Positions 3,001-60,595 of a stretch of 64,000 bases of DNA are shown piece by piece. Under the pieces are notes generated by a model. It was not told the origin of the DNA. It did not search any database and worked only from the letters and a program-made list of their open reading frames with translations. The translations under genes and the position numbers were made by a program. The stretch's first letter is position 1; the number at the start of each line of letters is the position of its first letter. The DNA is from Cafeteria roenbergensis (lineage: Eukaryota; Sar; Bigyra; Bicosoecida; Cafeteriaceae), in NCBI GenBank assembly GCA_008330645.1, contig VLTN01000014.1, forward strand, positions 496,001 through 560,000, given 5' to 3'.

Positions 3001-6000
3001 CCGGCGCGGTCTCACAACCCGTGGAGGTATTCCCGGCGACGCGAGTCCCCATCCGACTCCAATCGCTCGGGGATGCATCTGGGAAGCTGCGCAACGAGGT
3101 CCTCCAGGTTCATGCCGGCGGAAAGACCTGCAAAGTGACGCTCGCCCATGGAGACCGCGTTGGAAACCTTGTCACTGGCACAAAGTTGCTGAATGGAGTG
3201 ATTGGTCTGGACTGGAAGCCGGGCCACCGAGCCGACTCGCAGCTAGCTTGGAGACACTCGCTGCGGGTGCAAAACATGGGGCGCGGCGCCGGCCAGCTTC
3301 TTGTGCCTGACCGATTCTGTATCGCGGGCCTTGCATTTGCCCACCCAGGCCGCATCGTCGAGATCTCTTCAGGCGCAGCACACCTGGAAGAAGTGGATAT
3401 TGCAGCGCCTGCGCTGTGCGCATCCGGGCTCGAAGCCGCTCTGCGTCAGGTCCATTCTGGTCCGCCCGCTGCCCTGAGGTTTCGCTTCCAAGCAGCATCG
3501 CAACAGCCACAGCTGGTGGCCAGTGGCCCAGTTCTCGACGTGGGCACAATTGACAGCGCGGCCAACCGCGTCTTTCGAATTTGCGTCAAGAATGTGGGTG
3601 GGAAGGAGGCCAGGTTTCGGGTGCACCACGTGACTTGCAAATCCAAGTCGAAGGAGTCGCATGCGCAGCTTGCAGAGTTCACGGTGGCGCGAGTTATTCC
3701 GGCGCCCCCAGCAGCCGCAGCGGGGTCGGCCGCAGCGGCCGCAGCGGCCCCCGCCAACGGCTTGGAGGATTTGCGCCCGTTTCACAGCAAAGACGCTGAC
3801 CCGCTGCGGGCGCTTTCGATCGTCCGACCCTTTGTAGTCCTTCAACCCGGCGAGCACTGCAGCCTCCACGTAGGTCTGAAGGTGGCCGATTTTCCACACC
3901 CTGGACCCTTCGCCAAGCTGGTTAGCATCGTTTGCTGCGGCCAGACTCAGCTGGACGCCAGCGGGGTGGCTCGGAAAACTGCCGTTCTTCAGGTACAGGT
4001 CGTTGGCACCGTGCGGCGATCTGCTGACTCTGCGGACGCCACCCAGGAGCCCAGATTCGGCGATGTAGGCCCGGGCCGGTTCCCTGCGGCTCTGGTTGAC
4101 AGGGTTCGCGGACTGCCCCGCCGCACGGCGGCTGTCGCAGCTGGTCTGCTCCCGCTGGCCTGGTGCCATCGCCACCGGACAGGGGAGCCCGGCTCGGCAC
4201 TTTTGAATGCGTTGGTTGCCCTCGCATCATCGCTGTCCGCGGGCGAAGAAGCTGACGAAGCTACCTTGCGGGCTGCATTCTGTCTGCCCGCAGAGGCGGA
4301 TGCCTGCAAAGAACTGGCCGTGATCTCGGGCTTGGGCCGGCAGATCGCAGCTGCAGGCGCATTTTCTGATGATAGGGCCCTTGCCGCAGCAGTAAACGAG
4401 CAGGTCAGCCACTTTGCTGATGCCGAGTCGGCAGCAGCATCGGTGTGCTTGGCTTGCCGACGAAGTTTCGCCTCGCCTGAGCCTGCGACGACGGAGGCGA
4501 TGTACAACGAGTTGTTGGCTGTGAGTTCTGCGCTTTTGCCGGGCCTGGAGGAAGTCGCCTCGGAGTCGCCGCATATTGAAGGAGCATCGGCTGCCGAGGC
4601 GTGGAGGCAAGAGCGCGTGCTTGCTCAAGTCGGGACCGCGGCTGCTGTGCTGGCAGCAGCCAGCCCCACTGCCGATTCGCATGAGAACATGGTGGCCCTC
4701 GGGGCGCTGATGGAGTGCATGGCAAGCGCCTCTCGCAGCCCCGCGCTGGCTCGCGCGCGCCAGCTGCTCCACGAGCTGCAAGCGCATTCTGGCAACGTGC
4801 CAGAGCAATGGATGGACCCATGCTCCTTTTTCTGGAACAAACTGCTTCGTCACCATATTGGACCAGGCTCTCACTTGCAAGTCGTGCAGGCGGTTTTGGA
4901 CGGCAGCTTTTGCGCCAACGGCTTGCTGCAGCTGTCATCGGCAAGCCATTTGCTCAAATCGTGCGGCGGCCTGCGAGCCGTGCCAGCAGTTGCCGATGGG
5001 CATGCAACGCTGCGTGATGCCCTCGTGTCGGACTGCACCTGCGACGCTATGCGCTCGACAAGGCACTCCGACCAACGGCATGACTGGGAGCAGCTCTGTA
5101 AAGTCGGTGCAGTTGAATCTGCAATTCTCGCTGCGCAAGAGGCCTGCAACATAGTTGACGCGCTGCACGCTCTTGCAGCTGCTCCGACAGACACGCCGGG
5201 CCAGGCGTTCGCGGAGTTTGTGACCCCTTTGCTGAGAGCATTCAAGGCTGTGGACCTGGCAGCTTCTCAGTCTGCACTGGCAACAGCCATGTCTGACCTC
5301 ACCCAGGCACTGCTCGCGGGCGAATCTGTGGCGAGTCAAGTAATGGGCCCGGTTGTTAAGCAGATTGTGTCTGCAGGCGCCGGGGCAGCGAGCTGCATGC
5401 GCTCATTGACAGTCTTGCAGATTTCGGATGCGATCGCCTGTCTTGCCTCGCTCCCTCATCCACCTCCGTTTGAGGCGAGCGTGCTGCAGGATGGCGGCAC
5501 TGGAATCTGGGAATGGCCGCCCCGCACGCACGGGCGCATCGAAGCGAGCCTCAGCGCTGCAGCTCGAGCAGGAGCACCCGCGTGGCATGGCGCGCCCGGT
5601 CCATCCTTTGGCATGGCTCTTGCTGCAGACTCCGAGTGCAGCGACAGCTCGGGGGACAGCTCGGACGAAGAGCAAGCGCCAGCAGCACCAGCACCAGCAC
5701 CAACTTCAGCTGCGATAGCACCTGATCGGCTACCAGCAGCCTGCGAGGATACCGCGCTCGCCGTGGCTGCCATTCGGTCGTCTCTTGTCGGCCCGGATGC
5801 CGAGCCCGCTGACGGAGTGATCATTCTGCCGAGCCACGTGTTCGCTGCACTGCCTCGGTTCCGAGCTGCGTGCGAGGAGTACCCGGTGCTATTCGAGAAT
5901 TTGGTGCTGGCTGGCCAGCAGCCAGCAGCGAGGCGACCGCGCAGAGCCGCTCGAGCGCTCCTGGGCTCCACTTTGCTCAGTGGCTTGGAGCTGTTACAGC

Positions 6001-9000
6001 TCTCCCGCGCCATGCTCATGTGCCTCGTTCGCCATTCGGGGTCAAGCGTGGCTCTGGATGTGATCGAGAAGCCAGCTCAAAAAGTTGCGCGCTGCCTCGG
6101 GCAGCTTCCACGAGACCCAGAGCTGCTCAACCCCGAGCTATCTAAACTCTTAGAACAGTTTGGGGTCCTTGGCGACGACTCTGACTCCTTGCTTCGGGCT
6201 CTCGACGTGGCTCCAAGCGATGCAGACGATCCGCAACACGCTGCCTCCGTGGCGTTCAAAGCGGAGAGCACGTTCCTGGGCCACAATTTCACGCTTGGCG
6301 GCGACTTGCGAGGCATGGCGGGCCCTGTTCTTGAGCTGCCAGCTCCCCCTTGTGGCAGCCCAGGGCCAGCGGAAGACAGCAAATTTGAAGCGGGGCAGGC
6401 GGAGACGGTGCATTCTCGACGCAGCGATTTCCAGCATGCTGGCGACCACTCGCTGGCGCTGCTGGACGAGCGCACTCTGAGAGTCACTGCCGAAGACTTC
6501 GAGTCGTCCACAGCTGGCCCGCACGGCTCGGGCTCGAGCGTGGCACCCGACAGAGGAGGATTCATGTCCCACACTAGGGCGGCAGCTCAGAGGCTTCTGC
6601 ATCAGGCTCGTCATGGTCTCGCTCTTGCAGGGCGCCTAAAGCCCGCTGTGACGCCAAGACATGCAGTGTCTGCGGATTCGGCAGCGACCGTAGCAAACCA
6701 AGCTCGCAGCGGACCCGCGCCATTGGACCTCCTTTCGCACGCTGGAGCTTCCCAGGCAATCGCATCCCTCAAGTTGGACGTCGGTCATCTTGCCAAGTGC
6801 CGATTGGTAGATGCTGCCGGCCTTGAAGCTGCGATTCGGACCGGGCAGCACGCCCGCATCGACCCCAGCACCGCGGTGGCCGGAGACGACGTAAGCCAGC
6901 CGATGCCCAAACTTGCTTGCTGGCCGTATGACGAAGTTGTCCGCACCGCGGCAATGCAAGAATTCATCGGGACTGTGTTGACAGCGTTCAGAGATGCGTT
7001 CTTTTCAGTGTTCTCCTCGTTGGGGGATTCCACCATCGAGTTCCTGCTTCTATTTGACAACAGCGGAAGCATGGCTCCGCTGGAAGTGAACATCCAGGAA
7101 ACTCTGGTGCTGCTCATCGAAGTGTTGCGCAAGCTTGAGGTTCGGTTCGCAATCGGGCGAGTCGGTGCTGCTGACAACGCACGATTGCTCAAGCCATTCA
7201 ATGAGCCCTTTTCTTCGGCAGTTGGCCAGCGGCTGCTGGAGTCCTTCAGCTTCAACGAAGGGAGCTACCCTGCAAGCGGACTCTGTGCGCTCTCGAGGAA
7301 GGTGTTCTCCCCGCGGCCTGCTCCCCCAGGTTGCCACAGGGCAGTGATCATGGTCACGGACGGGCTGACCTCGGAGGCCCGCGACGCTGGGGCGGCGACA
7401 GAGGCAAACTTCTTGCAGCCGGCCAGGCACTTTGGCTTCCGCCTGAGCATGCTCCAGCTCAAGCCTTTCCGCACCGGGGACGCAGCAGCTGAGGCTTTCA
7501 CGGAAGAGAGCCTCCGGGATGTTTGCCACCGCTCGAGAGGGGTACATGCGTCGCTGGTGGCCAGCCAGGAAGGCGCATTGGGCTTGCCGCAGACTGTCGC
7601 CAAGCTGCTCATGGACACCATCGCCAAAATGGCAGAAGGCCCGCTCCCCCACGCGTGTGCAGCAGCACCGCCGAGGGCCGCGGCCGCTGCCCCCGCAGGT
7701 TCCAGCGTTCCCCGCCCAGCCGAGCGGGTTCAGCTCCGACCGCTGCTCGTGCCAGCAGCAGAGCTCCCTGCAGCCGAGCTGGAGCGGCTCAGAGGGATGC
7801 TGGGTCGCGTGAACAGCTTGGACGAAGCAATCGCGGCTGCAGCTGGGGCGCCACCGAATCGGCTTTTCGACACGAGCGTTGCAAGAGCTGCTGAGGTGCC
7901 GTTTGCGAAGGCGTTGGGCGGCGACGCGTCAGCAGCATCAGGTGCCCGTGCAAGCGATCACGAAGTGGCTCGACGCAAAGCCATCGACTCTGCGGCAGCT
8001 GCTCAGATGGGGCGAGTTGCACGTATTTCGATTGCCTGTCCCGAAGCGCTGGCCATGGCAGCCACTGAATGGGCGTCTGCAGAGCGGGCGGTGGCCAAGT
8101 GTGCCGAGGAGCTTTGCACTGTTCTCGAGGAGTGTGTCATGCCGCACAACCGGCACACGAGACGCAGGCCGGACGTCAAGGGGCAGTTCAGTCCTCAACG
8201 GGTGGTGATTGCTTGCATGACCGAGTGGAGACACCGCAAGATCTATACCTCCAAGACCGCGGGTGGGAAGCGGAATTACGCCTTCTGCCTGGCCCTGGAC
8301 GCATCGCTGTCGATGGATGGCGTCCTGCAGTGCTGTGCCGTGGAGAGTCTGGTGGCCGTTGTCTCCGCTCTCGGCATGATGGGCTTGGACAGCTTTTCGG
8401 TCATCGTGTTTGGGTCGCGGGTGACGTTGGTCAAGTCCGAGGACCAGCCGTGGGATGCTGCAACGGTGCACGGCCTGCTGGCCGCCCTTTCACACCGGAT
8501 AGAAGATCCATCCGCCATGCGCGGTGCCACAGCTGCGGCTGCCACCGCGGCTGCGCCACGCGGCGAGTCAGGTGCCCTTGGCAACGTCTACGGGACTGCT
8601 GACGCTGATGCCGTCGAGTATGGCCTGAATCTGCTCCGGGAGTCCGGCTCAAGCGGGCCCAAGAAGCTGTGGGTGTTCACCGACGGCTACACATCGTGTG
8701 GGCAGCGCCTCACCGAGGCGCTCGTGGATGCAGACAAGGAGGGCGTTGAGGTCCTGGGCATTGCGGTCGGCCCCGACCGATCCTTCACCTCCACAGTGTA
8801 TCAACACTGGGTGCGCGCTGCAATGCCCACTGCCCTGTCGCCTGCACTTCGGGCACTGTTCTCGCGCGAGGCCGTGCGGGCTCCAATGGCCGCCCAGTCT
8901 GCATCGCTGCAAGACTCCACGCCACTGTGGGCCAGGATGCGCGTGCGGGACACCTGCCCCAGCGACAGCTCCATTCAGGGCATCCTTGGCTCGATGCAGC

Positions 9001-10394
9001 AAGCTTTTCCTGACCTGGCCGCCAAAATGGACAGCATCCGCAAGCTCAAGCTCGTTCGAGGCAATGCAGGCGGCGTCATGCAGGTCGATGTAGCGTTTGT
9101 GCTGGACGTGACGGGGAGCATGAGGCCCTGGCTCGGCGCAGTGAAGGAGCAACTCAGAGCGATCATGCAGGACATTGGCCCCAAATTTGCCGAAAAGTGG
9201 CCGCAAGTGCCTATCTTGCTTCGCTTTGCCGTGCTTCCGTACCGCGATATTGGCGAGGAGACTCCGGACCCGCACGACTTCGAGCCTATCCCAGTTCTGC
9301 CCGCGGATGATGTCGACGGTGCCCAGGCCGCGATGGACCGCTTTTGCGCCGAGGCACATTCCAGGTTGCAGGCTTACGTGAAAACTCTGAGTGCAAGTGG
9401 AGGGGGAGATGAGCCCGAGGACTTGCTGGGGGCCCTGACAACGTCGGCCAATACACTCAGTTGGGAGGGAAGGGTGCGGCTTGCCATTGTGCTGACGGAT
9501 GCGCCTTGCCATGGGTCCAACTTCCACGCTGAAGACATCGCCGACAGCCTCCCAGATCCGGACGCAGCCAAGAGTGCTGCAAAAACGGCTTTGCGGGCAC
9601 TCGACAAACATGGCATCGACACCATGCTGTGCCACGTGAAGCGCGACGCGACCAGGCAGATGGAGGAGCAGCTACGCAGCATCTATGCCTCGTTGAGGCG
9701 GCCAGACGGAAGCCTGATCGATCCGTCGCGGCGCCTGCTCAAGTCGCTTGATCTCTTCAAGCCTGGCGATGGCGGAGAGGTGCGCCAGTCAATGCACTTG
9801 GTCTTCGTTCTGGACGAGTCTTACAGCATGAACGGCGCGCCCTGGGAAGCCCTAATGCAAGCGTACCGGGCCTTCCTTGACATCCGCAAAGATGCAAACC
9901 AAGGCATTGGAATGGATAGGGTGTCTGTCGTGCTGTTTGACGACACCGCGCGAACGGTGGCGGCCGCACTTCCCATCGAGGAAGTGCCGGGGCACTTTGC
10001 TCGGACAGGCTCGGGCACTGCGTTTAGTCCGGCGCTGAGAGACGCAGAAATTGCACTTCGCTCGACGCCCCCTGGCTATTCGCCGTTGGTGCTGTTCATG
10101 TCCGACGGCCACGGCAGCGGTGGCGAGGCCGAGATGGCAAGGATTCACGAGACCTACGCAGGCAAGGGGCTGCAGGTCCACTCGATTGCATTTGGCGGTG
10201 CCAAGCACGAAAAGCTACGACTGCTTGCGGAGCATGCCCACGGGGCGTTCCACGCAGCCCCTGACCCAACTTCGCTGCGGATGACGTTTACGCGCATCGC
10301 CGCCGCAGCCGGAGCCGCTGATGGCCTGGTCTCGCAGTTCGCCAAGTACGTCGCGGAGAACGTTGCCGACAAGCTTGTGTCGGAGTACATGTAG
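1..10394 (+). CDS. Giant protein with four C-terminal vWA domains (5' partial)
   Basis: The frame is open from base 3 to the TAG at 10392, so the gene starts left of the window; more than 3460 residues are visible without an intron. The last third carries four von Willebrand A folds, each with a MIDAS-type metal-binding motif: DNSGS (codon at 7056), DASLS (8298), DVTGS (9105) and DESYS (9813). Each is followed by typical later strands such as VMVTDG and LFMSDGHG. The third resembles the vWA of alpha-kinase-like proteins, the others general vWA. Upstream, around 2060-2300 and 3530-3650, there are beta-rich segments with FGDV-type starts that resemble ASH/MSP-like Ig folds of ciliary and centrosomal proteins; this is tentative. 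The rest is helical, Ala-rich and unrecognised. No signal peptide or membrane segment is visible. vWA domains usually bind protein ligands through a metal ion, so a scaffold or adhesion-type role inside the cell is likely, but no specific function can be assigned. Confidence 0.85.
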   Translation, partial: APAHWEATREAIADQLLRDKASSGLVAEAWRAAERCRAVWSVSTAAWKAARVRMRRLAQLGADPAISSRLGAQLVSCATRTRLSHATGMGAGVSVGEACGDEAMQLVAHESLVGLSESFRLHAAQRIRDDPVAAVLAGLANDLEECADSFSRALDEAVGCREIDRRHGHASQWGAMGTGQASFAEQERALTEQSFRQVEARRRWEECTTGLADDFLLICERLLRTWNRLPREQHLLAVRLVTGNLDGLNPPRAGHFRCWRVLALELREPIKLYSPRSMPGFEITVSASNQHNVWDSFTAQLPRAGIAGEQCSHDIPLETTTLCIQPKGYEAVTMRLPRQGGELTFETTDWALTVCISVVDELSISDPTGVFASDASSAFHGTCAPTVHSDGGAAADHETQDWHQRASALAECAARLNAAVRAQPPVARLYQPRAFPPARHRSNRGAAALPDNRQREAEDRQAAIALQSIVVAKEQARAMEEVLRAATDVPSGLGLRVARDVAGGLATLAARLRASAAPPADRRSRVRWTTGMQASAERALAAAGQACSFVGKWLAGIAVTSSLQLAALAAAAWTPRLQLEVEEATRKFGKLLKFVTQRTPPDVLRGHLGAVWGTARPATVLSALADLHRAAEEWQTELQLCLERLPADVTATPSPRRLLQSIGLRAKAVHVQVGCSDAGIVLLSPCKHLDFGDVLGGCQSELRAIRFTSQAPSPVDIEARLSDLADGEFSLGNDGATKAALRLHPGQAVTLVVRANVGPRAAPSGEADAHSLVITARIDPARSVCAAGTAAVQPGQLALSLAKLVVQPEAIPLPARLESTESLSKDGTLLLAVDLRNSTKIRTPVKAAVALRAPHFSGTRAVACSAEVFPASFVLPPNGVQTVRVEAKVALERRAGLPRVLGKISFVVGRVSNVIAVPVDIRLVEPAFQLETEAGVVIADETTLVATTLPAPGVSCPSKTATVYLRNLDPTTVLRAVVSFAIELPAHGQACGFGIIGAAPGAVSQPVEVFPATRVPIRLQSLGDASGKLRNEVLQVHAGGKTCKVTLAHGDRVGNLVTGTKLLNGVIGLDWKPGHRADSQLAWRHSLRVQNMGRGAGQLLVPDRFCIAGLAFAHPGRIVEISSGAAHLEEVDIAAPALCASGLEAALRQVHSGPPAALRFRFQAASQQPQLVASGPVLDVGTIDSAANRVFRICVKNVGGKEARFRVHHVTCKSKSKESHAQLAEFTVARVIPAPPAAAAGSAAAAAAAPANGLEDLRPFHSKDADPLRALSIVRPFVVLQPGEHCSLHVGLKVADFPHPGPFAKLVSIVCCGQTQLDASGVARKTAVLQVQVVGTVRRSADSADATQEPRFGDVGPGRFPAALVDRVRGLPRRTAAVAAGLLPLAWCHRHRTGEPGSALLNALVALASSLSAGEEADEATLRAAFCLPAEADACKELAVISGLGRQIAAAGAFSDDRALAAAVNEQVSHFADAESAAASVCLACRRSFASPEPATTEAMYNELLAVSSALLPGLEEVASESPHIEGASAAEAWRQERVLAQVGTAAAVLAAASPTADSHENMVALGALMECMASASRSPALARARQLLHELQAHSGNVPEQWMDPCSFFWNKLLRHHIGPGSHLQVVQAVLDGSFCANGLLQLSSASHLLKSCGGLRAVPAVADGHATLRDALVSDCTCDAMRSTRHSDQRHDWEQLCKVGAVESAILAAQEACNIVDALHALAAAPTDTPGQAFAEFVTPLLRAFKAVDLAASQSALATAMSDLTQALLAGESVASQVMGPVVKQIVSAGAGAASCMRSLTVLQISDAIACLASLPHPPPFEASVLQDGGTGIWEWPPRTHGRIEASLSAAARAGAPAWHGAPGPSFGMALAADSECSDSSGDSSDEEQAPAAPAPAPTSAAIAPDRLPAACEDTALAVAAIRSSLVGPDAEPADGVIILPSHVFAALPRFRAACEEYPVLFENLVLAGQQPAARRPRRAARALLGSTLLSGLELLQLSRAMLMCLVRHSGSSVALDVIEKPAQKVARCLGQLPRDPELLNPELSKLLEQFGVLGDDSDSLLRALDVAPSDADDPQHAASVAFKAESTFLGHNFTLGGDLRGMAGPVLELPAPPCGSPGPAEDSKFEAGQAETVHSRRSDFQHAGDHSLALLDERTLRVTAEDFESSTAGPHGSGSSVAPDRGGFMSHTRAAAQRLLHQARHGLALAGRLKPAVTPRHAVSADSAATVANQARSGPAPLDLLSHAGASQAIASLKLDVGHLAKCRLVDAAGLEAAIRTGQHARIDPSTAVAGDDVSQPMPKLACWPYDEVVRTAAMQEFIGTVLTAFRDAFFSVFSSLGDSTIEFLLLFDNSGSMAPLEVNIQETLVLLIEVLRKLEVRFAIGRVGAADNARLLKPFNEPFSSAVGQRLLESFSFNEGSYPASGLCALSRKVFSPRPAPPGCHRAVIMVTDGLTSEARDAGAATEANFLQPARHFGFRLSMLQLKPFRTGDAAAEAFTEESLRDVCHRSRGVHASLVASQEGALGLPQTVAKLLMDTIAKMAEGPLPHACAAAPPRAAAAAPAGSSVPRPAERVQLRPLLVPAAELPAAELERLRGMLGRVNSLDEAIAAAAGAPPNRLFDTSVARAAEVPFAKALGGDASAASGARASDHEVARRKAIDSAAAAQMGRVARISIACPEALAMAATEWASAERAVAKCAEELCTVLEECVMPHNRHTRRRPDVKGQFSPQRVVIACMTEWRHRKIYTSKTAGGKRNYAFCLALDASLSMDGVLQCCAVESLVAVVSALGMMGLDSFSVIVFGSRVTLVKSEDQPWDAATVHGLLAALSHRIEDPSAMRGATAAAATAAAPRGESGALGNVYGTADADAVEYGLNLLRESGSSGPKKLWVFTDGYTSCGQRLTEALVDADKEGVEVLGIAVGPDRSFTSTVYQHWVRAAMPTALSPALRALFSREAVRAPMAAQSASLQDSTPLWARMRVRDTCPSDSSIQGILGSMQQAFPDLAAKMDSIRKLKLVRGNAGGVMQVDVAFVLDVTGSMRPWLGAVKEQLRAIMQDIGPKFAEKWPQVPILLRFAVLPYRDIGEETPDPHDFEPIPVLPADDVDGAQAAMDRFCAEAHSRLQAYVKTLSASGGGDEPEDLLGALTTSANTLSWEGRVRLAIVLTDAPCHGSNFHAEDIADSLPDPDAAKSAAKTALRALDKHGIDTMLCHVKRDATRQMEEQLRSIYASLRRPDGSLIDPSRRLLKSLDLFKPGDGGEVRQSMHLVFVLDESYSMNGAPWEALMQAYRAFLDIRKDANQGIGMDRVSVVLFDDTARTVAAALPIEEVPGHFARTGSGTAFSPALRDAEIALRSTPPGYSPLVLFMSDGHGSGGEAEMARIHETYAGKGLQVHSIAFGGAKHEKLRLLAEHAHGAFHAAPDPTSLRMTFTRIAAAAGAADGLVSQFAKYVAENVADKLVSEYM

Positions 10395-49116: not shown

Positions 49117-51822
49117 ATGGGTGCCCGCGCATCGAGGAGGGCTGTTCGCGACGGGCCCGGAGGGAGCCTCAGCGCTGCCTGTCGAGCCGGGGACCGTGCG
49201 GGCGCGGCCACGCTGCTGGACCTGCACGTGGATGTGAATTGGAGAGACTCGGTGAGCCGAGGCGCCGCATGCCCGGGCGACCAGGTCACGCCGACGCAGG
49301 GCCTCCGGGGTGGCAGGTATGCGCCGAACCCTCGATGCGTTTCGCACTCATGTGCCCGTGTTGGGCGCTGCGGCGCAGGAGGGCAGGACGCCCCTGATGA
49401 TGGCCGCGTGGGCAGGCCACCCGGATGTCGTCCGACTGCTGCTGGACGGATTCGCGAGCCTGGACTTGCAGGACAACGTGAGCCTGCTGGCGGAGCAACC
49501 AGCTCACGCGCGGGGCCAGGGCGCTGGCCGGGCTGGCCGCCCTTGTCCTGCCCAGTCTGGCGGGAACGCGCTCCAACGAGCACCGGCACATTTGGACCCC
49601 CTGTGCTCTTGCCCAGCCGGGGCGTGTCGCTTGTGCGGCCGCAGGGCGCCCCATGCACTCCTTTGCGGCACCGCTGTTCAGGCCCTCTCCGGCGCCCACG
49701 GAGGGCCTTCAGTGGGCGCCTCGAGGCCGAGGCCGACGCGTGTGCTCCGTGGGCGCATTTTTTCCCGGTCTGAGCCCAGATCGGCAAGCGCCAACGCCGC
49801 TCCGCTCCGTGTCGCGGCCGCCCGCAACGCAGACTGGGTACACCGCTCTGATGCGAGCTGCCTGGAAAGGAAACACACACGTGCTCGCCCTCCTTCTCAC
49901 GAGTGGCGCGGCCTTGGAGGTTCGAGACCGCGTGAGACGCCGTTGCAATGCGGTCCGGCCCGACCACGCTTCCAGCCGGTGCTGTGGGCATGCCTGTGGC
50001 CAGCCGACTTGCGAACTTGTAGCAGGGGAGCATAAAACGCAGCCGGTGGGCGTGGGCCCTCGCGGCAAGCAGCCTCCTCCTTCGCTTGCGGTCCAGGCTG
50101 CACCGGCTGACCAAGCTCGAGCCCGGAGGCTCTGTCGGCGCAGGACGGATGTACGGCGCTGCTACTAGCCGCTCGCAACAGGTGTACCTCTGCAGTGAAA
50201 ATGCTTCTTCAGAGCGGAGCAAACGTAAATGCCCAGGACAATGTGAGCAGCCATGGTGCAGGAGCATGCCGCCGCGAGCATGGTCGGCGCTCCTCGATCG
50301 AGTGACTCCGCGAAAGCTCCGCCCCGAAACTGCAGCGAGGATATTCGGCCTTGATACTTGCTGCCTGGTATGGTGATGCAGCCCTCATGGACCTGCTGCT
50401 GGACCACGATGCGGAGGCTGCGCTGAAGGACGCGGTGAGCGGTTCAGCGCCCCTCGCCGCTGCCCCAAACCCATGCGATACGCCAGCCGCAACGGCGCTG
50501 AAAAGCTCACGAGAAGCAGCATTGGCCGGTCGACGGGGTTGTGGTCACATCGTAAAAGGTGTGTGCGTGGGGGGGGGGGGGTCCAAATGTTGTTGTTTTA
50601 CTTCTGACAGCTGTTTGGGCGTGTCTTCTGGCCGCTCAACGTCTGCAGGAGGGGTTCACTCCGCTCATGCGAGCAGCGCGCAACTGCTATTGGCCAGGCG
50701 TTGCGATGCTGCTCGGTCGCTGCTGCTACACGGAATCCCGAGACCCAGTGAGTCATCGATGCTGCCCAGCCAGAGCACTGCCCATGCTGTTAAAGTTTTT
50801 GGCGGTATCCACCGATGTGGTCGCATGATGCCACTGTTGGTTCATGGGACAAGTCGGCGCTCTGTACCGTGCCAGCGTATGGCGCCTGACGTGGACCCTC
50901 CAAGCCTAGCAGGATGGCCGCACTGCGCTCATGGATGCCGCCGACGACGGAGCTGCGGCCATCGCGAGGGAACTACTCGACAGGAAGGCGGACGCCGATG
51001 CCCAAGACAGGGTGAGCGGCAGGCAGCGGGCACAGCTTGCAGCCTCACGTGTGTGTGCAACACACCTTTCTATCCGCCCCAGAGTTGAACTAGGCTTGCT
51101 GCGTTGCTTCGTCTGTGATCCCTTGTACGCCCAGTTTGGGAACTCCCCCCTGCTTCTGGCCGTTGCGGGAGGCCACGTTGGGGCCTGCCGACTGCTTCTG
51201 GATCACGGCGCAGACCCCTGTGTCGGAAACAAGGTGCGCGGTTTGTGTTGACGCTTGCTACCCACAAAGCGTAGGCAACTCCCAATCACAGCCTCGCTGC
51301 TGTGCACCTCTTGCCTCGCCGCTGTGGCGGAGGGCCGAGTGACGGGGCAGCCTTGCGAGCACAGGCCCCACTGGCGAGCAGCCAGGAGCGCCGCGTGGTG
51401 GCGGATCCAAGAGCCTTGCATGAACAGCTAGAGGCGACGGCAGTCCGTTGGTCGCTCCGCGTGGCCTGGGACACGCATGCTCTGCGCAGTTTGGAAGCAC
51501 TCCGCTGCTTCTTGCTGTGGCGGGGTGCCGGAACGAGCTGGCCCGGCTGCTTCTGGAGCGCGGAGCTGACTTCACTGTCCAAGACCAGGTGGGGGATTGC
51601 CAGGGTCTCAGCTTCGTGTCGCTTTGCCTCGATATTTGCTGAGCGAAGGCGCTGGTGAGCGGGGATTCTCGCCAGCGATGCGCCATTGATGCAATGTCGC
51701 AGTCTGGTCACACACCGCTTCAAATTGCCGTCTCGCAAAGGGCCTACGGACTGATAGCCACACTTGCTGAGTTCGGAGCGTCCCGGCGCAGCGGGGGGCG
51801 CGAAGCGCCTCGCCACTCATAG
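49117..51822 (+). CDS. Ankyrin-repeat protein, one repeat per exon
   Basis: Ten exons encode 348 residues made almost wholly of ankyrin repeats. Exons: 49117-49251, 49379-49477, 49833-49931, 50144-50242, 50336-50434, 50649-50747, 50913-51011, 51135-51233, 51490-51588, 51703-51822. Exon 1 (45 codons) is a capping half-repeat ending VDVNWRDS. Exons 2-9 are each exactly 99 nt: one 33-residue repeat such as EGRTPLMMAAWAGHPDVVRL, always with the TPL/TAL-AA-LL-GA ankyrin signature. Exon 10 is a last repeat plus tail ending REAPRHS. All introns are phase 0 (93-355 nt) and end CAG; seven donors are GTGAG, the last two GTGCGC and GTGGGG. Exons 8 and 9 are the most alike (FG-PLLLAVAG). No other domain, signal or membrane segment is present, so it is probably a soluble protein-binding scaffold; partner unknown. 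Confidence 0.9.
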
Positions 51823-52090
51823 CTGGGCGAGGGCGCAGCACCGGCCGGCCAACTTCTTGTCCCGACAGGACCCCCGTGTTGTTTTCTAGTTACGATGGGT
51901 TGCGTGATGCCACAGCAGCAAAACGCGGCAACGAGCTGCAGTCGACCCACGCTGGTCTTGCTTGCTCGTGGCGCAGGAAGCTGCTGCCGCTTCAGACAGA
52001 GCAAGCCGTCGGCAGCAAGGCACACCTGCGTTCATTCATCGGCCTGTCGGGTTGGGCCCTGGCGAAAAGCGGGCGCGGCCACGTCACGGC
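51823..52090. promoter_or_regulatory. Promoter region of LRR gene A
   Basis: These 268 bp separate the ankyrin gene stop from the first LRR gene. The sequence is unlike the region upstream of LRR gene B, so the duplicated block begins essentially at the ATG. GC is lower than in the genes. Confidence 0.5.
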
Positions 52091-53966
52091 ATGGCTGACA
52101 GCGTGGGCACCGCCCCTGGTCAGGGCCGGCGCCGAGACGAAGCCGAGCGGGACCGCACTCCAGAGCCGAGCACCGAAATCACTCGCGACGCCGCGCGCGC
52201 TGGTGCCGCCGGCTCCGCCGCTGCGAGCCCCTTCGCCCAGGCGCACGGACAGCGCCCGGGGGGGACGGACGGGAGCGCCTTGCCGCTGGCAGAGGCCGTG
52301 CGGGAGCTGCGGCGCGACAGCCCGAGCGCGGACGAGGCCGCGCAAGTCGTGGTCGCGGCCGTTCGCAACATGGCGCCGGTGGACCCATCCGACGCGCGGT
52401 TGGCATCGTCACGCGCCATCGCGAGGGTGGCCGCGTCAGCAGGTCTGGGCGACATGTTTGCCGGAAACGGGGAGGGAGGGGAGGGGTCGGTGCTGCCTCG
52501 CTGGCTGACGCTCGAGGCTCGGCGCCGGCTTCTGGAGGCCGGGGCGGCGACGGCTCTGTGCGGGGTTGCCGATGACGTGCTGCGGGAGCTGCAGACGTGC
52601 TGGGACTGGCGAGAGGCCGAGGAGCTGGCGCCCGTCGCGCGGGAGCTGCATTTGCATCGCTCGCTGCTTCACTTCCATCTGTCAAGCAGGGCTTGCAGCG
52701 CCGGCGCGTTTGCGGCTGTGGCGTCTTCGCTTGGTCGGAATACAACGCTGCAGTCGCTTCACATTGGGGACGGGTGTCTCAGCGAAGAGCTGGCATTGGC
52801 GCTCGCTCGGGGCCTGCACGCAAACTCTGCGCTGCGGACTTTGGTTCTGCTCAAGGCGACCATCGAGGAACCGGGTGCGCGGGCCCTGGCGGGCGGAATC
52901 GCAGCGAACAGGGGCCTGGTGAGGCTGACCCTTCGAGGCCTGGGGCTGGGTGGCGCCGGCACGACGCTGCTTGGGATGGCCGTCCGGGACAGCAGCAGCA
53001 TCACGGAGCTGGCGGTGGACCTGCCCGCGGTCGACGACGCTGGCATGGCCGCGCTAGGGGACGCGCTGGCGTCGGCGCCGCGGCTCAGGAGGGCGCGCGT
53101 GGGCTGGTTCGGCACCGAGGGCCGGACGGCGCGCGAGCTGGTCACCCGCCTGGCGTCGAGCCGGACTCTGACGGCGTTGGCGATCGGTGCCGGGGTGCTG
53201 ATGCCCGGCGCCACGACCGACGCGGCCGCCGTCTCGGCCTTGGCTGCGGCCTTGCAGTCGAGCGCGAGCCTGCGCGAGGTGGACTTGGGGGCGTTGCCGC
53301 TGACAGAGGCGTCGGCTGCTGAGCTCGCGGAGGCGCTGGCCGCGAGCGCGAGTCTGACATCGGTGTGTCCTGCTCCGAGCCATCTGCCCGGCGCAGCGCT
53401 GGGGCATGTGGTGGGCTTGGTGCGAGCGAGCGGGGCGCTGCGGGCGCTGAGCATCCGCGGCCCTCGGCAGCTTGGGACTGCTGGAGGGCGCGCGGTGCTG
53501 GCGTCGCTGGGGCACAGCGCGGGGCTGACGGAGCTGAGCCTGGTCGGCGTGGGGATGCAGGGGGCAAGCGCGGCCGACCTGGCCCCTGCGCTCGGCGCTG
53601 CGGGGCGGCTGCGGACGCTGGACCTGTCGCGCAACTGGCTCAAGGACGCGGGCCTTGAGGCGGTGGGCGCGGGGCTGCGGGTGAACAGCTGCTTGACCTC
53701 GCTGTCGCTCGTGGGCATGGGGGCCACTGCGGTGGGCGTGCGCCATGTCGCGGCGGCGGTTCGTGAGAACTCGACGCTGACCGAGCTGCGGCTGGACGGC
53801 AATGCGGTTGGGGAGGACGGCGCAGCTGCGGTTGCGGAGATGCTGCTGGCGAACAGAGCGCTCAAGTCCCTGGGACTGCGGCAATGCAAGCTTGGAGACG
53901 GTGGTATTTCGGCGATTGGGAGGGCTTTGCCCGACAACAGCAGCTTGGAGACGCTGGATCTGACGA
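52090..53966 (+). repeat. Tandem duplication, left unit
   Basis: The unit aligns without gaps to 54608-56484. By eye only about ten to fifteen single-base differences are seen outside the diverged block 52827-52871. The boundaries fall at the ATG on the left and inside the last third of the LRR array on the right. Confidence 0.9.
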
Positions 53967-54352
53967 GTAACGACTTTTCGATGACCTCAGCGTGCCCAGC
54001 GTTGTTGAAAGGGCTGAGCCGGAATCGTGGCTTGACTGACTTGCGACTGAGGACTGCCCTGCTGAGCTCGCATTGTGTTTCAGCCATGGCTGAGGCACTG
54101 CGCATGAACTCCACCATCGCTCGCCTGCATGTTGGCAGCCTTGGGTGTTCGTCTGAGGATCTGCTGGCCTTGGCTGAGGCCGTGAGAGTCCACCATCGGC
54201 TGCAGCGTATCGTCGTCAGCGCACCTCAAGAGCTGTGCGAAGGCCGAGTAGAGCTGCTGGCCGCGCTTGAGCGGTCGTGCCATATGGCAGTCGCGTGGGG
54301 GCGGCGCCGGCAGCTGGTGCATTGGCGGGCCTCCTCCTTTGCTGCAGCGTGA
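52091..54352 (+). CDS. Leucine-rich-repeat protein, copy A
   Basis: This intronless 753-residue protein has a ~190-residue N-terminal region (Ala/Gly/Arg-rich, then helical) and about 18 leucine-rich repeats of the ribonuclease-inhibitor/NOD type, e.g. NSTLTELRLDGNAVGEDG with 27-29-residue spacing, alternating LxxLxLxxN strands and helical AAAVAEML-type segments. No kinase, NACHT, TIR, signal peptide or membrane segment is visible. RI-type LRRs form horseshoes that bind other proteins. The start MADSVGT was chosen because it is shared with copy B while the open frame upstream differs completely between the copies. From the ATG to 53966 it is nearly identical to copy B except one 45-bp block. 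The last ~380 bp are strongly diverged. It follows the ankyrin gene on the same strand. Confidence 0.9.
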   Translation: MADSVGTAPGQGRRRDEAERDRTPEPSTEITRDAARAGAAGSAAASPFAQAHGQRPGGTDGSALPLAEAVRELRRDSPSADEAAQVVVAAVRNMAPVDPSDARLASSRAIARVAASAGLGDMFAGNGEGGEGSVLPRWLTLEARRRLLEAGAATALCGVADDVLRELQTCWDWREAEELAPVARELHLHRSLLHFHLSSRACSAGAFAAVASSLGRNTTLQSLHIGDGCLSEELALALARGLHANSALRTLVLLKATIEEPGARALAGGIAANRGLVRLTLRGLGLGGAGTTLLGMAVRDSSSITELAVDLPAVDDAGMAALGDALASAPRLRRARVGWFGTEGRTARELVTRLASSRTLTALAIGAGVLMPGATTDAAAVSALAAALQSSASLREVDLGALPLTEASAAELAEALAASASLTSVCPAPSHLPGAALGHVVGLVRASGALRALSIRGPRQLGTAGGRAVLASLGHSAGLTELSLVGVGMQGASAADLAPALGAAGRLRTLDLSRNWLKDAGLEAVGAGLRVNSCLTSLSLVGMGATAVGVRHVAAAVRENSTLTELRLDGNAVGEDGAAAVAEMLLANRALKSLGLRQCKLGDGGISAIGRALPDNSSLETLDLTSNDFSMTSACPALLKGLSRNRGLTDLRLRTALLSSHCVSAMAEALRMNSTIARLHVGSLGCSSEDLLALAEAVRVHHRLQRIVVSAPQELCEGRVELLAALERSCHMAVAWGRRRQLVHWRASSFAAA

Positions 54353-54608
54353 CCACAAAACTTCTCTGCGTCGATTCTGCATGAGTCTGCTTGCTCTCTG
54401 ATCAGGTCAGCCCTACCTGCCTGAAGCTGTGCAGGCATCCCCTCTCCCGTCCCTCCGCGCTTGCCACTCAAGGACGCAACTTGAAGCGTCTGCGCAGCAG
54501 CGTCGGCAAATGTCCGAATCCCGGCAGAGCTTGTCGCAGTCGCAGCTGCTTGGGGCGGCAGACATGCTTCACAGGCCCATCCACCAACGGGCATCACGAG
54601 GCCGGGGC
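54353..54608. promoter_or_regulatory. Promoter region of LRR gene B
   Basis: This 256-bp spacer between the tandem LRR genes is unlike the spacer before copy A, so the two copies probably have different promoters. Confidence 0.5.
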
Positions 54609-56484
54609 ATGGCTGACAGCGTGGGCACCGTCCCTGGTCAGGGCCGGCGCCGAGACGAAGGCGAGCGGGACCGCACTCCAGAGCCGAGCACCGAAATCAC
54701 TCGCGACGCCGCGCGCGCTGGTGCCGCCGGCTCCGCCGCTGCGAGCCCCTTCGCCCAGGCGCACGGACAGCGCCCGGGGGGGACGGACGGGAGCGCCTTG
54801 CCGCTGGCAGAGGCCGTGCGGGAGCTGCGGCGCGACAGCCCGAGCGCGGACGAGGCCGCGCAAGTCGTGGTCGCGGCCGTTCGCAACATGGCGCCGGTGG
54901 ACCCATCCGACGCGCGGTTGGCATCGTCACGCGCCATCGCGAGGGTGGCCGCGTCAGCAGGTCTGGGCGACATGTTTGCCGGAAACGGGGAGGGAGGGGA
55001 GGGGTCGGTGCTGCCTCGCTGGCTGACGCTCGAGGCTCGGCGCCGGCTTCTGGAGGCCGGGGCGGCGACGGCTCTGTGCGGGGTTGCCGATGACGTGCTG
55101 CGGGAGCTGCAGACGTGCTGGGACTGGCGAGAGGCCGAGGAGCTGGCGCCCGTCGCGCGGGAGCTGCATTTGCATCGCTCGCTGCTTCACTTCCATCTGT
55201 CAAGCAGGGCTTGCAGCGCCGGCGCGTTTGCGGCTGTGGCGTCTTCGCTTGGTCGGAATACAACGCTGCAGTCGCTTCACATTGGGGACGGGTGTCTCAG
55301 CGAAGAGCTGGCATTGGCGCTCGCTCGGGGCCTGCGCGCAAACTGCACGTTGTGCACTCTTTGTATTGATTGCGACTCGGTCCACGGAGCGGGTGCGCGG
55401 GCCCTGGCGGGCGGAATCGCAGCGAACAGGGGCCTGGTGAGGCTGACCCTTCGAGGCCTGGGGCTGGGTGGCGCCGGCGCGGCGCTGCTTGGGATGGCCG
55501 TCCGGGACAGCAGCAGCATCACGGAGCTGGCGGTGGACCTGCCCGCGGTCGACGACGCTGGCATGGCCGCGCTGGGGGACGCGCTGGCGTCGGCGCCGCG
55601 GCTCAGGAGGGCGCGCGTGGGCTGGTTCGGCACCGAGGGCCGGACGGCGCGCGAGCTGGTCACCCGCCTGGCGTCGAGCCGGACTCTGACGGCGTTGGCG
55701 ATCGGTGCCGGGGTGCTGATGCCCGGCGCCACGACCGACGCGGCCGCCGTCTCGGCCTTGGCTGCGGCCTTGCAGTCGAGCGCGAGCCTGCGCGAGGTGG
55801 ACTTGGGGGCGTTGCCGCTGACAGAGGCGTCGGCTGCTGAGCTCGCGGAGGCGCTGGCCGCGAGCGCGAGTCTGACATCGGTGTGTCCTGCTCCGAGCCA
55901 TCTGCCCGGCGCAGCGCTGGGGCATGTGGTGGGCTTGGTGCGAGCGAGCGGGGCGCTGCGGGCGCTGAGCATCCGCGGCCCTCGGCAGCTTGGGACTGCT
56001 GGAGGGCGCGCGGTGCTGGCGTCGCTGGGGCACAGCGCAGGACTGACGGAGCTGAGCCTGGTCGGCGTGGGGATGCAGGGGGCAAGCGCGGCCGACCTGG
56101 CCCCTGCGCTCGGCGCTGCGGGGCGGCTGCGGACGCTGGACCTGTCGCGCAACTGGCTCAAGGACGCGGGCCTTGAGGCGGTGGGCGCGGGGCTGCGGGT
56201 GAACAGCTGCTTGACCTCGCTGTCGCTCGTGGGCATGGGGGCCACTGCGGTGGGCGTGCGCCATGTCGCGGCGGCGGTTCGTGAGAACTCGACGCTGACC
56301 GAGCTGCGGCTGGACGGCAATGCGGTTGGGGAGGGCGGCGCAGCTGCGGTTGCGGAGATGCTGCTGGCGAACAGAGCGCTCAAGTCCCTGGGACTGCGGC
56401 AATGCAAGCTTGGAGACGGTGGCATTTCGGCGATTGGGAGGGCTTTGCCCGAGAACAGCAGCTTGGAGACGCTGGATCTGACCT
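54608..56484 (+). repeat. Tandem duplication, right unit
   Basis: This is the direct-repeat partner of 52090-53966. The internal diverged block is 55345-55389, the same length as in the left unit, so the reading frame is kept. Confidence 0.9.
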
Positions 56485-56873
56485 TCAACCGCTTCTCCTC
56501 TCATGGCGCAGCGGCCTTGTTGGAGGGGATGGGCCTGAATCGCGGTGTGGCACAACTAGATTTGTGGCCTTGGACCGTAGACTCCGAAGGCGTCAATGCC
56601 CTTTCAAGCATGCTGCGCAACAACTCGACGCTGGCGTGCCTGGACCTGGGGCCTGCCACGTTTTCGTCCTCGGATCTGCTCGCCCTGGCTGGTGCAATCC
56701 AGGAGCATAGCAAGCTGCGGAAGCTGGGCATCAAGGGTGGCCAAGACCTGTGCGAAGGCAGAATGGCGCTGCTTGTTGCGCTTGAGCACTCGCAGCATCT
56801 GGTGGACTTGTGGCACAGGCGGCGGCAGCTGGTGCACTGGCGGGCCTCGGGTGCTCTTCGGGGGAGGACATAG
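54609..56873 (+). CDS. Leucine-rich-repeat protein, copy B
   Basis: This intronless 754-residue paralogue of the preceding gene has the same N-terminal region and RI-type LRR array. Differences in the shared part are a few substitutions (V for A and G for E near the start, AA for TT near residue 294). One LRR stretch, CTLCTLCIDCDSVHGAG, replaces SALRTLVLLKATIEEPG. From LDLTFNRF onward the last ~125 residues differ at many positions but keep the LRR pattern, and both copies end in the shared RRRQLVHWRAS before short unrelated tails. The shared end motif shows that the C-termini are homologous but older in divergence than the rest. It is convergent with the rhamnosidase gene, 231 bp away. Confidence 0.9.
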   Translation: MADSVGTVPGQGRRRDEGERDRTPEPSTEITRDAARAGAAGSAAASPFAQAHGQRPGGTDGSALPLAEAVRELRRDSPSADEAAQVVVAAVRNMAPVDPSDARLASSRAIARVAASAGLGDMFAGNGEGGEGSVLPRWLTLEARRRLLEAGAATALCGVADDVLRELQTCWDWREAEELAPVARELHLHRSLLHFHLSSRACSAGAFAAVASSLGRNTTLQSLHIGDGCLSEELALALARGLRANCTLCTLCIDCDSVHGAGARALAGGIAANRGLVRLTLRGLGLGGAGAALLGMAVRDSSSITELAVDLPAVDDAGMAALGDALASAPRLRRARVGWFGTEGRTARELVTRLASSRTLTALAIGAGVLMPGATTDAAAVSALAAALQSSASLREVDLGALPLTEASAAELAEALAASASLTSVCPAPSHLPGAALGHVVGLVRASGALRALSIRGPRQLGTAGGRAVLASLGHSAGLTELSLVGVGMQGASAADLAPALGAAGRLRTLDLSRNWLKDAGLEAVGAGLRVNSCLTSLSLVGMGATAVGVRHVAAAVRENSTLTELRLDGNAVGEGGAAAVAEMLLANRALKSLGLRQCKLGDGGISAIGRALPENSSLETLDLTFNRFSSHGAAALLEGMGLNRGVAQLDLWPWTVDSEGVNALSSMLRNNSTLACLDLGPATFSSSDLLALAGAIQEHSKLRKLGIKGGQDLCEGRMALLVALEHSQHLVDLWHRRRQLVHWRASGALRGRT

Positions 56874-57104: not shown

Positions 57105-60100
57105 TCAAGCGAAAGTCGCAGAGAACACGAACGCGCCCCCAGGGCCAACGAGAAACTCGACGCCGCCATCGACAGCGGATGCGCCCGCGACGCCTTGGCA
57201 CCCGGGGACGAACTCGCCTTCAGCCCACGCGAGTTCGCCGTTGGCCGTGATGAGCAGCCCCGGGCCGGTATCCCCTGCCGGCACAACAACCTCTGCGCTG
57301 GCTCCGCCCACCGGCAGGCGCACGCTGAGCAGCAGCTGCCCATCGTCAGCTCTGAGGCCTTGGGACGCACGGTTGGCGGCCTCCCCTCCGGCCAGCCTTG
57401 CGGCTGCCACCGAAGTGCCGTTCGTCCAGGACACGGTGGCGGGCCCGCGCAGTGTCGGCACTGTTGCGTTGGCCCACGGGATTTGGGGCTGCGCGGTCAC
57501 TCGTGGGTGGATGCGCAAGCATGCAAAGCCCGTTTGGCCTCCGCACTGCAGCCCCAGGCCAGCCACGTGCTCGAAGAACCACATCTCTGGCCCGGCGCTG
57601 AACATGTGATGGGCACGACTGTTCATTCCGGGGCCGCTGACGGGTGCTGTCCACAGTTCCCAGAGCGTGGTTGCGGGCTCGTAGCCATGCGTGCCACCGT
57701 CGATCATGAATCCAAAGCTTGGGTACTCTCGCTGCAGCATCAGGTCGACTGCAAGGCTCGAGTAGCCGTGCAGCGTGAGCTGCCGGAACAGGTTCTTCGA
57801 GCCCGAAATGCCTACCGCGAGCTTGCCGGCGTGTGTAACCTCAATGTCGTAGACGGTTGAGAGGAACGCCTCCTCGGCGTGCTTGACGCCCAGCGCTGCC
57901 GCCAAGATGTTGGAGACCTGAAGCCCGTCGCGGTTGGCGAAGCCAGCGCCGTATGCGTTGATGGTCCAGTCCCAAAACGCTTGGTCGAATTCCTCTCGCC
58001 GAGCCGCTGCCTCGGCAACGTATTGCCGAGCAGCAGCTGCGTCGCCGGCAGCAGCAGAGAGCTCCACCATGCGATCTAGGTCGCTGATGAAGTTGAAAGC
58101 GGAGACGAGGGACTTTGGCGGCTTTGGGCCCTGGGTGGAGTCGTTGGGGCTGGTCGGCAGCACCGCCGGCGGCGTCACCCACTCGCCGTAGTGAGCGAAC
58201 ATCTTTTTCAGGCCGGTTGCGTTCGCAGCAGAAGAGAGTGCTGCAGCGTATTGGTGAAGCGGGCCAAGGATGGAGCCGAGCAGCTGGCGGTCCTCTGCGT
58301 AGTGCCAGAGCTGGGACACTGCCGTTGGGTAAGCAGTTTGCCAGCTCGGGTCGCCTGGCGCAGACCCAAACGTGAGCGGCGTGGTGTCGCCGACCGAGGC
58401 GCCATGTTCCGGCTGGAACGGGTTGACCTGCTGGTCGCGCATCGCTTGCACCCATTGCCCGAATAGCGCAGGCATGTCAAAGTTGTAAAAGAACGACTCC
58501 GTTGACAGCGCCGAGTCGCCCATCCAGCCTGCGAGCAAGCACACGCGCAGCGGAGTGCATGTTGAGCTGGCGGAGCCCAATGCGCCCGCGCCGCACCTTG
58601 GAGCCTTGGCGAAGCGACAACGCTGCGCTGCGTGCGGCGAAGAGGAGGGCCATCGTCACAAGCGCGCGCACGGAGCAGCACTACCCCAGCCGGGGACCAA
58701 AAGCATGTGCCTCACCCTTCCGCTCGTCGCGCTGCGGGCAGTCCGAAGGCAGGCTCATCAGGTTCGCGGCCTGCACCCACGCGGCTGCGTGGTGGATCTT
58801 GTCCAGCAGGCCCGTCGCGTCGCCAGCACTGAATGACCCCTCACGCGCCACGTCTGTTCGGAAGTGAACGGCGACGAGCGTCTTGTCGTTTGGCCCTGCC
58901 CAGGACTCGGGCACGCCAGACACTGCGAGTTGGGCGAAGCGAAAGCCGTGGTATGTTGCCTCGCCAAACTCGTGCGATTCCGTCACGCCGTCGTGCACGT
59001 ACGTGTCCGTTGCAAGCGCCGAACGAAGATTTCCAGTGTATACGGAGCCGTCGACGGGGCCGTACGGAGGGTGCATGAGCACCTCCGCGTGCTTGATCAC
59101 AAACGTGGCCCCGCTGGGAGTGCCCTCCGGGACGGTCAAGCGCACAGCGCCGGCCATGTTCTGGCCAAAGTCCCAGACCCACACCCGCGGGCCGGCGGAG
59201 GAGTTCCGAACCTCCTTCATTGAGCCTGGGAAGTCAGCCTGCGTTGCCACCGCCGGCATCGCTTGGGCGGACAGGGTGATGGCCGATGAGAAGGGCCAGG
59301 CTGCCAGCGCGGGCGCCCAGGTGTCCCTCACAGAGGGAGGGGGGCTCCACCCCGGCATGTCCCACCCTGGCGTCTGCCTGCCGGCATGAAAGGCCTCGCC
59401 GTCGTAGATGCTGTCGTTTACGCGCGGCCCCCCGCCGCAGGACCAGCTAGCGTTTAGCCGAACGGCCTGCCTTGCCGTGCCGTTGTGCGGCCTCCGGGCC
59501 AACTCCACGCCGGGCAGAGGAGCCGTCGCGACGCCGTCGAAAGCGACCGCAGGGGCCCCGGGGGCCCCTGTCACGACGGAAAAGGAGGGCCCGTCAAGCG
59601 TGTCCACGACCAACATCGCAACGGCCTTCCTCAGGGCGCCGCCGCGCCGCCAGGGCACGGATACCTGAGCGTCCGACCCGTTCCACGCCGCGGGGAGCAC
59701 GTCTGCCCACCCGTTGCCGAGCTCCAGCGCCAGCGCCACGGAGTCGCCCCCCGCCTGGACTGCCCCTGTGACGTCCGCATACGTGTACAGCACCCTCTGG
59801 CGGAAGGCGGTCCACCCCGCCTGCAGGCGCGCCCGCGCGGACCCAGCGGTCTGTCCGTTAACGAAGGCGCGAGCGATGCCGGTGCCTGCCACGTACAGCC
59901 GCGCGCTGGTCACGCCCTTGTGTGCGGGCAGCCGAACCTCGGTGCGGAAGCGGTTTCGCGCGTACGTGGGTGTTTCGGCGTCGAACTCGCCCGTCTGGTT
60001 GCAGGCGATCCAGGCCGCCCCACGCCAGTCGCCGCTGGCCCGTGGACCCACGACGAAGGAGAACGGGTCCGACCACGGCGACACCTGACCAGCCTGGTCC

Positions 60101-60595
60101 CACACGCGCACAGACACGGTCGCAGCAGTGTCGGCGGGCACCGGATCGTCCGCCCCGAACGCGACGTTGAATGACGCCGCGCTCTCAACCTTGCCGCTGT
60201 CCCACAGCGCCGTCCCGGCCGCAGTGCGGACCGATATACTGTAGGCGCTTTGCAGCTGTCCGGCCTCAAGGTCGGGAACCCAAGAGAACCGAGGGCGGGG
60301 CGTGTCCACCAGCGCCCAGTCGGCCTGGTCGATGTACCTGCGAGGAGCGACGAGACGTCTCTGGCGAGCGGTTGGCTGCGCCGCGCCCCCAACTGTATGT
60401 AGATTCGCGCGCGCTCGCTGAGGCGGAGGCGCCTCGGCAGGACGGGCGCGGCCGCGGGCACCGGGGCGCGGAAAAGACGTGTCTCCAGCAGTTGCACTCT
60501 CACTCGACGCGCAGCCGCGTGGGCGGGCCCATGGCGGCCCTTGCCGCCCGGGCCGCCAGGAATGGCACCAGCAGTGCCAAAAGACTGTGCCTCAT
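57105..60595 (-). CDS. Secreted GH78 alpha-L-rhamnosidase, three exons
   Basis: GH78 enzymes remove terminal alpha-L-rhamnose from polysaccharides and glycosides by an inverting mechanism. Exons 60595-60504, 60337-58716 and 58528-57105 join in frame to 1045 residues, with introns of 166 and 187 nt (GTGAGA and GTGAGG donors, CGCAG acceptors). Exon 1 encodes a signal peptide (MRHSLLALLVPFLAARAARA, about 21 residues). The first junction restores LRVEYIDQADWALVDTPRPR, the typical start of the N-terminal Fn3-like domain. Two beta-sandwich domains follow (WRGAAWIACN, RLYVAGTGIARAFVNG, ELGNGWADVL). The second junction rebuilds the catalytic motif DCPQRDERKGWMGD (about 563-576), with the family's conserved acidic residues. 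The (alpha/alpha)6 barrel continues (MIDGGTHGYEPATTLWELW, SRAHHMFSAGPEMWFFEHVAG) and a C-terminal beta domain ends the protein. The usual Leu after DER is Lys. It is likely used to digest algal or bacterial rhamnose polymers. Confidence 0.93.

Follow-up and report, generated by a model that had tools for sequence, protein, structure and literature searches.

Designed ankyrin repeat proteins (DARPins) follow the plan of a cap, internal modules of 33 residues and a second cap, and the human ANK1 gene is an instance of a layout with repeat-spanning exons. Exons of repeat proteins often cover entire repeat units (PMC3995336, citing Street et al. 2006). This statement and the commonness of a 99-nt ankyrin exon in the genome studied here speak against the premise of a first-pass annotation that ankyrin genes usually have introns at irregular places in the repeat. 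According to a survey of domain repeats, ankyrin repeats expand in blocks, with blocks of four domains dominant, and duplication of one domain at a time is linked to EGF and IG domains (PMC1553488). In fungi, NLR proteins with highly conserved ANK, TPR or WD repeats show repeat-number polymorphism, for which concerted evolution was suggested; signs of positive selection were seen at five positions of the single ANK locus examined, all but one of these positions lying on the concave binding surface (PMC4986451). The main text of that paper never uses the word "introns". In PMC6972860 and PMC8547959 "ankyrin" is absent from the main text, and in PMC7852580 the ankyrin repeat turns up a single time, as an entry in a table of domains enriched among differentially expressed genes.

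The window analysed here is a stretch of 64,000 nucleotides of contig VLTN01000014.1 (C14; other contigs are abbreviated likewise). The source organism is taken as Cafeteria roenbergensis strain BVI, a diploid, bacteria-eating marine flagellate of the bicosoecids, which is named C. burkhardae in PMC8547959. Its assembly CrBVI is described with 170 contigs, 36,327,047 bp and 70.1% GC (PMC6972860); the genome that we searched contained 36,303,456 bases in 167 contigs. The mitochondrial cox1 gene gave one match in this genome with 11 in-frame TGA codons read through, and UGA encodes tryptophan in Cafeteria mitochondria (PMC6972860). A search of the genome for members of the light-harvesting family yielded no match.

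The gene under study is located on the plus strand at window positions 49117-51822 (contig positions 545117-547822). The region around it was scanned for open 99-nt segments bounded by AG and GT/GC, and the window sequence was read in spliced form. This resulted in 10 exons and 9 introns of 93-355 nt. Exon 1 (49117..49251, 135 nt) was defined by translation and splice site and comprises the start codon, a short N-terminal tail and the N-terminal cap repeat. Exons 2 (49379..49477), 3 (49833..49931), 4 (50144..50242), 5 (50336..50434), 6 (50649..50747), 7 (50913..51011), 8 (51135..51233) and 9 (51490..51588) have exactly 99 nt each and encode one 33-residue ankyrin repeat each. Exon 10 (51703..51822, 120 nt including the stop codon) encodes the C-terminal repeat. 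In 8 out of 8 internal exons (49379-51588) length, phase 0 at both ends and the cut point after D-x are constant, resulting in a one-repeat-per-exon gene. Both the segment scan and the spliced reading thus confirmed the layout that had been proposed in the first-pass annotation. As a control for chance occurrence, an ankyrin-scored scan for 99-nt segments on both strands of the 64-kb window only returned these eight exons and one weak spurious segment on the minus strand at 16154.

All nine acceptors read CAG and 7 out of 9 donors GTGAG, the other two being GTGCG (51234) and GTGGG (51589). Among the nine introns, intron 7 (51012..51134, 123 nt, plus strand) alone combines a length divisible by three with the absence of an in-frame stop codon; its retention would hence leave the frame open. 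Cafeteria genomes contain on average 1.67-1.89 introns per gene (PMC6972860), so that nine introns are unusual in this organism. The 99-nt exons differ from each other in 52% of positions in the pairwise mean. No two of them are closer than exons 8 and 9, but the proposal that they are recent duplicates was not borne out, because they share only 65.7% of nucleotides and 18 out of 33 amino acids and their flanking introns do not match. In plus-strand comparisons of the introns with each other, no similarity was detected beyond two 16-nt matches (E ~0.07).

The spliced product has 348 amino acids and matches ankyrin-type Pfam families only. Ank_2 matched strongly (E 1.5e-73; 243.8 bits compared to a cut-off of 27.3), with its best stretch starting at residue 19 within exon 1, which assigns the product to the ankyrin-repeat proteins. 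The 348 residues gave no match to an enzyme or membrane family, and the Pfam search found none of the NACHT or NB-ARC domains that precede the repeats in NLRs. Among relatives with solved structures, the top scores include those of ankyrin-1/2, NompC and designed ankyrin proteins. Most likely, the product is an end-to-end ankyrin solenoid of N-cap, eight full repeats and C-cap, predicted to form a protein-binding rod. An allelic copy of the gene is found on the haplotig contig C142, where it aligns in two blocks with 95.6% and 99.2% identity and shows the same ten-exon layout.

Other parts of the window contain further candidate genes. Two adjacent leucine-rich-repeat genes at 52088-54333 and 54606-56848 represent a tandem duplication with 92% identity over 2266 aligned columns, of which C142 apparently carries one copy only. 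On the minus strand, two adjacent open reading frames at 57108-60309 jointly match domains of a bacterial-type alpha-L-rhamnosidase. Going by these domain matches, they possibly are one gene with an intron or a frame break and of bacterial origin. An open frame of 3438 codons on the plus strand (78-10394) has a match to a von Willebrand A domain near its end.

A genome search with the spliced window protein returned regularly spaced runs of exon-sized matches as well as longer uninterrupted ankyrin frames. A search for other arrays of 99-nt phase-0 ankyrin exons, suggested in the first-pass annotation, was successful on many contigs. In the regions fetched, such exons occurred in tandem on contigs 28, 29, 8, 61, 155, 88, 4, 60, 50, 10, 15, 36, and 43. 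More diverged tandem exons of 99 nt were found on contigs 17 and 78. From the 13 main arrays 116 units were scored, C17 and C78 being extra; this count includes one N-cap piece (the first "unit" of C15), which was retained in the unit statistics. Introns between neighbouring units of the main arrays (n=99) measured 146-282 nt, 90% of them about 165-219 nt. Array genes whose ends could be read share a common N-cap exon and a common C-cap exon. Whole-genome searches with composite caps yielded 110 N-cap and 101 C-cap matches (E <= 0.01; haplotigs included), and 66 out of the 110 N-caps are followed by a C-cap downstream on the same strand within 9 kb. The family is defined here as the genes built of an N-cap, n 99-nt exons, and a C-cap, and there are dozens of them in the genome.

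The introns provided further information on how the arrays are composed. A single array intron used as query gave at least 133 matches on at least 19 contigs, with matched stretches of 119-225 nt. Among the matches listed, gaps between neighbours of less than 250 nt were exactly 99 nt long in 92 out of 103 cases and 100-148 nt in the other 11. Homology links array introns both inside one gene and across different genes: leaving out the haplotig pair, the 24 longest matches listed between arrays have 68-83% identity over 223-242 columns. The duplicated unit of the arrays is the exon plus its intron, hereafter called a cassette. The longest cassette runs among the matches listed, given as match positions only, were C74:10508-17146 (21 introns) and C14:10151-16098 (19 introns). 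The latter shares its contig with the window gene.

The window gene has the exon type of this family, i.e. 99-nt phase-0 repeat exons cut after D-x. However, its end exons were absent from both the 110 N-cap and the 101 C-cap matches (E <= 0.01), its introns had no plus-strand blastn match to array introns at E <= 0.01, and its locus was not among the 133 matches listed for the array intron. Descent from the array family is hence not established: a gene of the same design that lacks the tested family caps and introns is at most an old relative of the family. The most suitable reading is that of an old, single gene that shares the design and presumably stands outside the expanding family.

Gain or loss of a whole cassette was found between two haplotypes, and this claim uses contigs C43 and C135 alone. 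C135 is taken as the haplotig of C43 and differs from it in 4 out of 495 exon positions and 21 out of 1805 other positions. Apart from end overhangs and two 1-nt gaps, their alignment contains a single internal gap of 298 nt, the length of one exon plus intron; this cassette is present in C43 and missing from C135. Two other candidate cases were dismissed. C10 and C129 have 13 and 11 intact units, respectively, but their alignment shows short gaps only, so that no whole-cassette difference is claimed. The difference between C36 and C107 (6 and 7 units) is due to one base missing from a C36 exon, which may be an error. The suggestion in the first-pass annotation that the locus is a modular cassette array therefore holds for other genes of this genome, in which tandem exon-plus-intron units and the 298-nt difference are found. 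It is not supported for the window gene itself, whose exon number is the same in the sole other haplotype seen (C142) and whose introns bear no trace of duplication.

Variation inside the array units is concentrated in the exon heads, defined as nucleotides 1-42 (first 14 codons) of the 99-nt exon. Of 386 within-array unit pairs, 42 pairs from five arrays have introns that differ by less than 2%. In these pairs replacement divergence was 0.30 at six surface codons and 0.034 elsewhere, compared to an intron divergence of 0.009. Units 10 and 11 of C10 are an example, with 0/200 and 0/200 differences in the flanking introns, 0/54 in the tail and 7/42 in the head. Units 4 and 5 of C129 have 2/199 and 2/199 differences in the flanking introns, 0/54 in the tail and 17/42 in the head. 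Because pairs of units from one array depend on each other, the tests were run over arrays or runs of units. The two arrays of C43 were treated separately in the test over 15 runs and pooled for the variability ranking, the near-identical-intron pairs, and pN/pS. Head divergence exceeded intron divergence in 14 out of 15 runs (Wilcoxon p 1.2e-4), the exception being C61; 3 of the 15 runs rest on one pair each. Tails diverged less than introns in 13 runs, equally in one (C10.1, both zero), and more in one (C43.1).

The most variable codons are chiefly those varied in designed binders. Codons 1, 3, 11, 12, and 33 were preset as positions randomised in DARPins, in agreement with the aligned repeats of 6mol. 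All five are among the six most variable of the 33 positions in the units. The sixth is codon 8, which joined the six-codon set after inspection of the data, while the 15-run and pN/pS tests keep the preset five. Divergence at positions 1 and 2 of these five codons was higher than intron divergence in 15 out of 15 runs (p 6e-5). Their pN exceeded the pS of all codons in 11 out of 13 arrays (exceptions C60 and C28) and the pS of the same five codons in 10 out of 13 (exceptions C15, C28, and C43). Silent sites in the heads are also raised, and the heads thus look older than the surrounding introns. The best account of this pattern would be that introns and tails are homogenised and that selection holds the heads different. 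Exchange of heads among the units of an array may contribute, and so may a locally raised mutation rate in the heads. Exchange across loci was considered as well, but none of 113 distinct 42-nt heads occurred in more than one locus, and conversion donors shared between loci were dropped as a source.

We favour, with good though not full confidence, the view that the window gene is a genuine, constitutively spliced gene for an all-ankyrin protein of 348 residues, and that its layout goes back to tandem duplication of exon-plus-intron cassettes in an ancestor. The ancestral gene would have grown by one 99-nt phase-0 exon and one intron per cassette, probably copied by unequal crossing-over or gene conversion. 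The window gene was presumably built by this array route, although its introns are too divergent to show it. A different course, in which an uninterrupted repeat frame multiplied before introns such as introner-like elements entered all repeats in parallel at a matching site, would agree with the lack of detectable common sequence among the window introns and with other ankyrin matches in the genome that run over several repeats in long open frames. This course is unlikely, however, since it requires nine insertions at equivalent codon boundaries in the window gene, array introns are homologous inside single genes and from gene to gene, and all 133 array-intron matches listed sit at places also matched by unit or cap exons, which is not the behaviour of dispersed introners. 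Uninterrupted many-repeat ankyrin frames of several hundred codons, e.g. C28:60461-61921, C28:426637-428613, C45:286240-287682 and others, occur as well as the exon arrays, so that two modes of encoding ankyrin repeats coexist in this genome.

Under cassette duplication the tidy layout could still be a legacy of an earlier array in a locus that is, or is becoming, a pseudogene. The C142 copy has frame-breaking indels of 1-2 nt in 4 out of 10 exons (1, 2, 3, and 10), and third-position GC of the window gene (0.68) is no higher than local GC. The two haplotypes differ in 3 of 1047 aligned exon positions and 35 of 1644 intron positions (Fisher p 2.9e-5), but 2 of the 3 exon differences alter an amino acid, and 24 of the 35 intron differences fall in intron 2, without which the comparison is 3/1047 versus 11/1291 (p 0.11) and the constraint is not significant. 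On the other hand, in the main assembly none of the ten exons has a broken frame and every splice site is preserved, and 1-2 nt indels are also dense in the introns of C142 and upstream of the gene. For this reason the exon indels of C142 are probably sequence errors, although C142 may be a damaged allele. Decay of the gene is accordingly regarded as improbable. The recurrence of exon length, phase, and cut point in many other genes is better support for the splice model than the haplotype test. A similarly low probability is given to the idea that skipping or choice of exons yields proteins with different repeats from one gene: any 99-nt phase-0 exon could be skipped with the frame surviving, whereas the donors and acceptors described above contain no clear weak subset and much of the diversity of the arrays exists in the DNA already, as differing exon heads. 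In the favoured reading of a constitutively spliced gene, the window gene would be expressed, and the array proteins would bind variable partners through their variable residues.

Many arrays are located near contig ends, but TTAGGG or CCCTAA occurred in none of 14 ends of 500-520 nt each. Some contigs stop inside an array, and assembly breaks explain this location equally well; a subtelomeric placing is thus not claimed. A 208-nt dispersed repeat (C43:6043-6250) gave at least 40 matches with 97-100% identity, 40 of 240 candidates having been scored, and several of its matches are within about 5 kb of array-gene cap exons (C6, C17, C31, C43, C79, C107, and C135). Its copies look as if they could be part of a mobile element.

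As a tentative picture, which we hold to be somewhat less probable than its contrary, Cafeteria may possess dozens of DARPin-like proteins with single-exon binding modules, which would form a fast-evolving repertoire for recognition. Cassettes would be gained and lost between haplotypes, introns and tails kept uniform, and the first 14 codons variable or actively diversified. This would amount to a germline repertoire of binders in a unicellular predator that hosts a giant virus and virophages, with the window gene as an old fixed offshoot. The question whether repeat proteins acquire units through exon shuffling or inside exons is mostly debated on the basis of old, diverged genes. In Cafeteria the process is watchable, as identical introns surround different heads and a whole cassette differs between the haplotypes of one strain. 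Because four strains (BVI, E4-10P, Cflag, and RCC970-E3) have already been sequenced, each repeat can be assessed for changes in copy number, for gene conversion, and for selection.

Repeat-matching exons themselves are already known. Stand-alone ankyrin rods that combine single-exon modules with cassette turnover and variable heads were not encountered in searches of open-licence PMC papers, and none of the papers returned named such an ankyrin family. Like other genes with repeat-spanning exons, the Cafeteria arrays have introns at repeat boundaries and units that can be gained in frame. They differ from the domain repeats surveyed in PMC1553488 in that the unit is a single ankyrin repeat plus intron, one of which differs between two haplotypes. 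With the fungal NLRs they share ankyrin repeats that vary in number and have variable positions. In contrast, the fungal repeats sit behind a NACHT or NB-ARC domain, whereas the Cafeteria protein consists of ankyrin repeats only, each encoded by its own exon. In plan they resemble DARPins, in which caps also enclose a row of modules, and 5 out of 7 DARPin variable positions are among the six most variable of the 33 codons in the natural units. Unlike DARPin modules, the natural units are encoded by exons, vary at codon 8, and are nearly fixed at codons 24 and 31, which are varied in DARPins. If the array proteins bind foreign or self molecules, they would be a natural stramenopile repertoire of binders with the architecture that protein engineers adopted for designed ankyrin binders.
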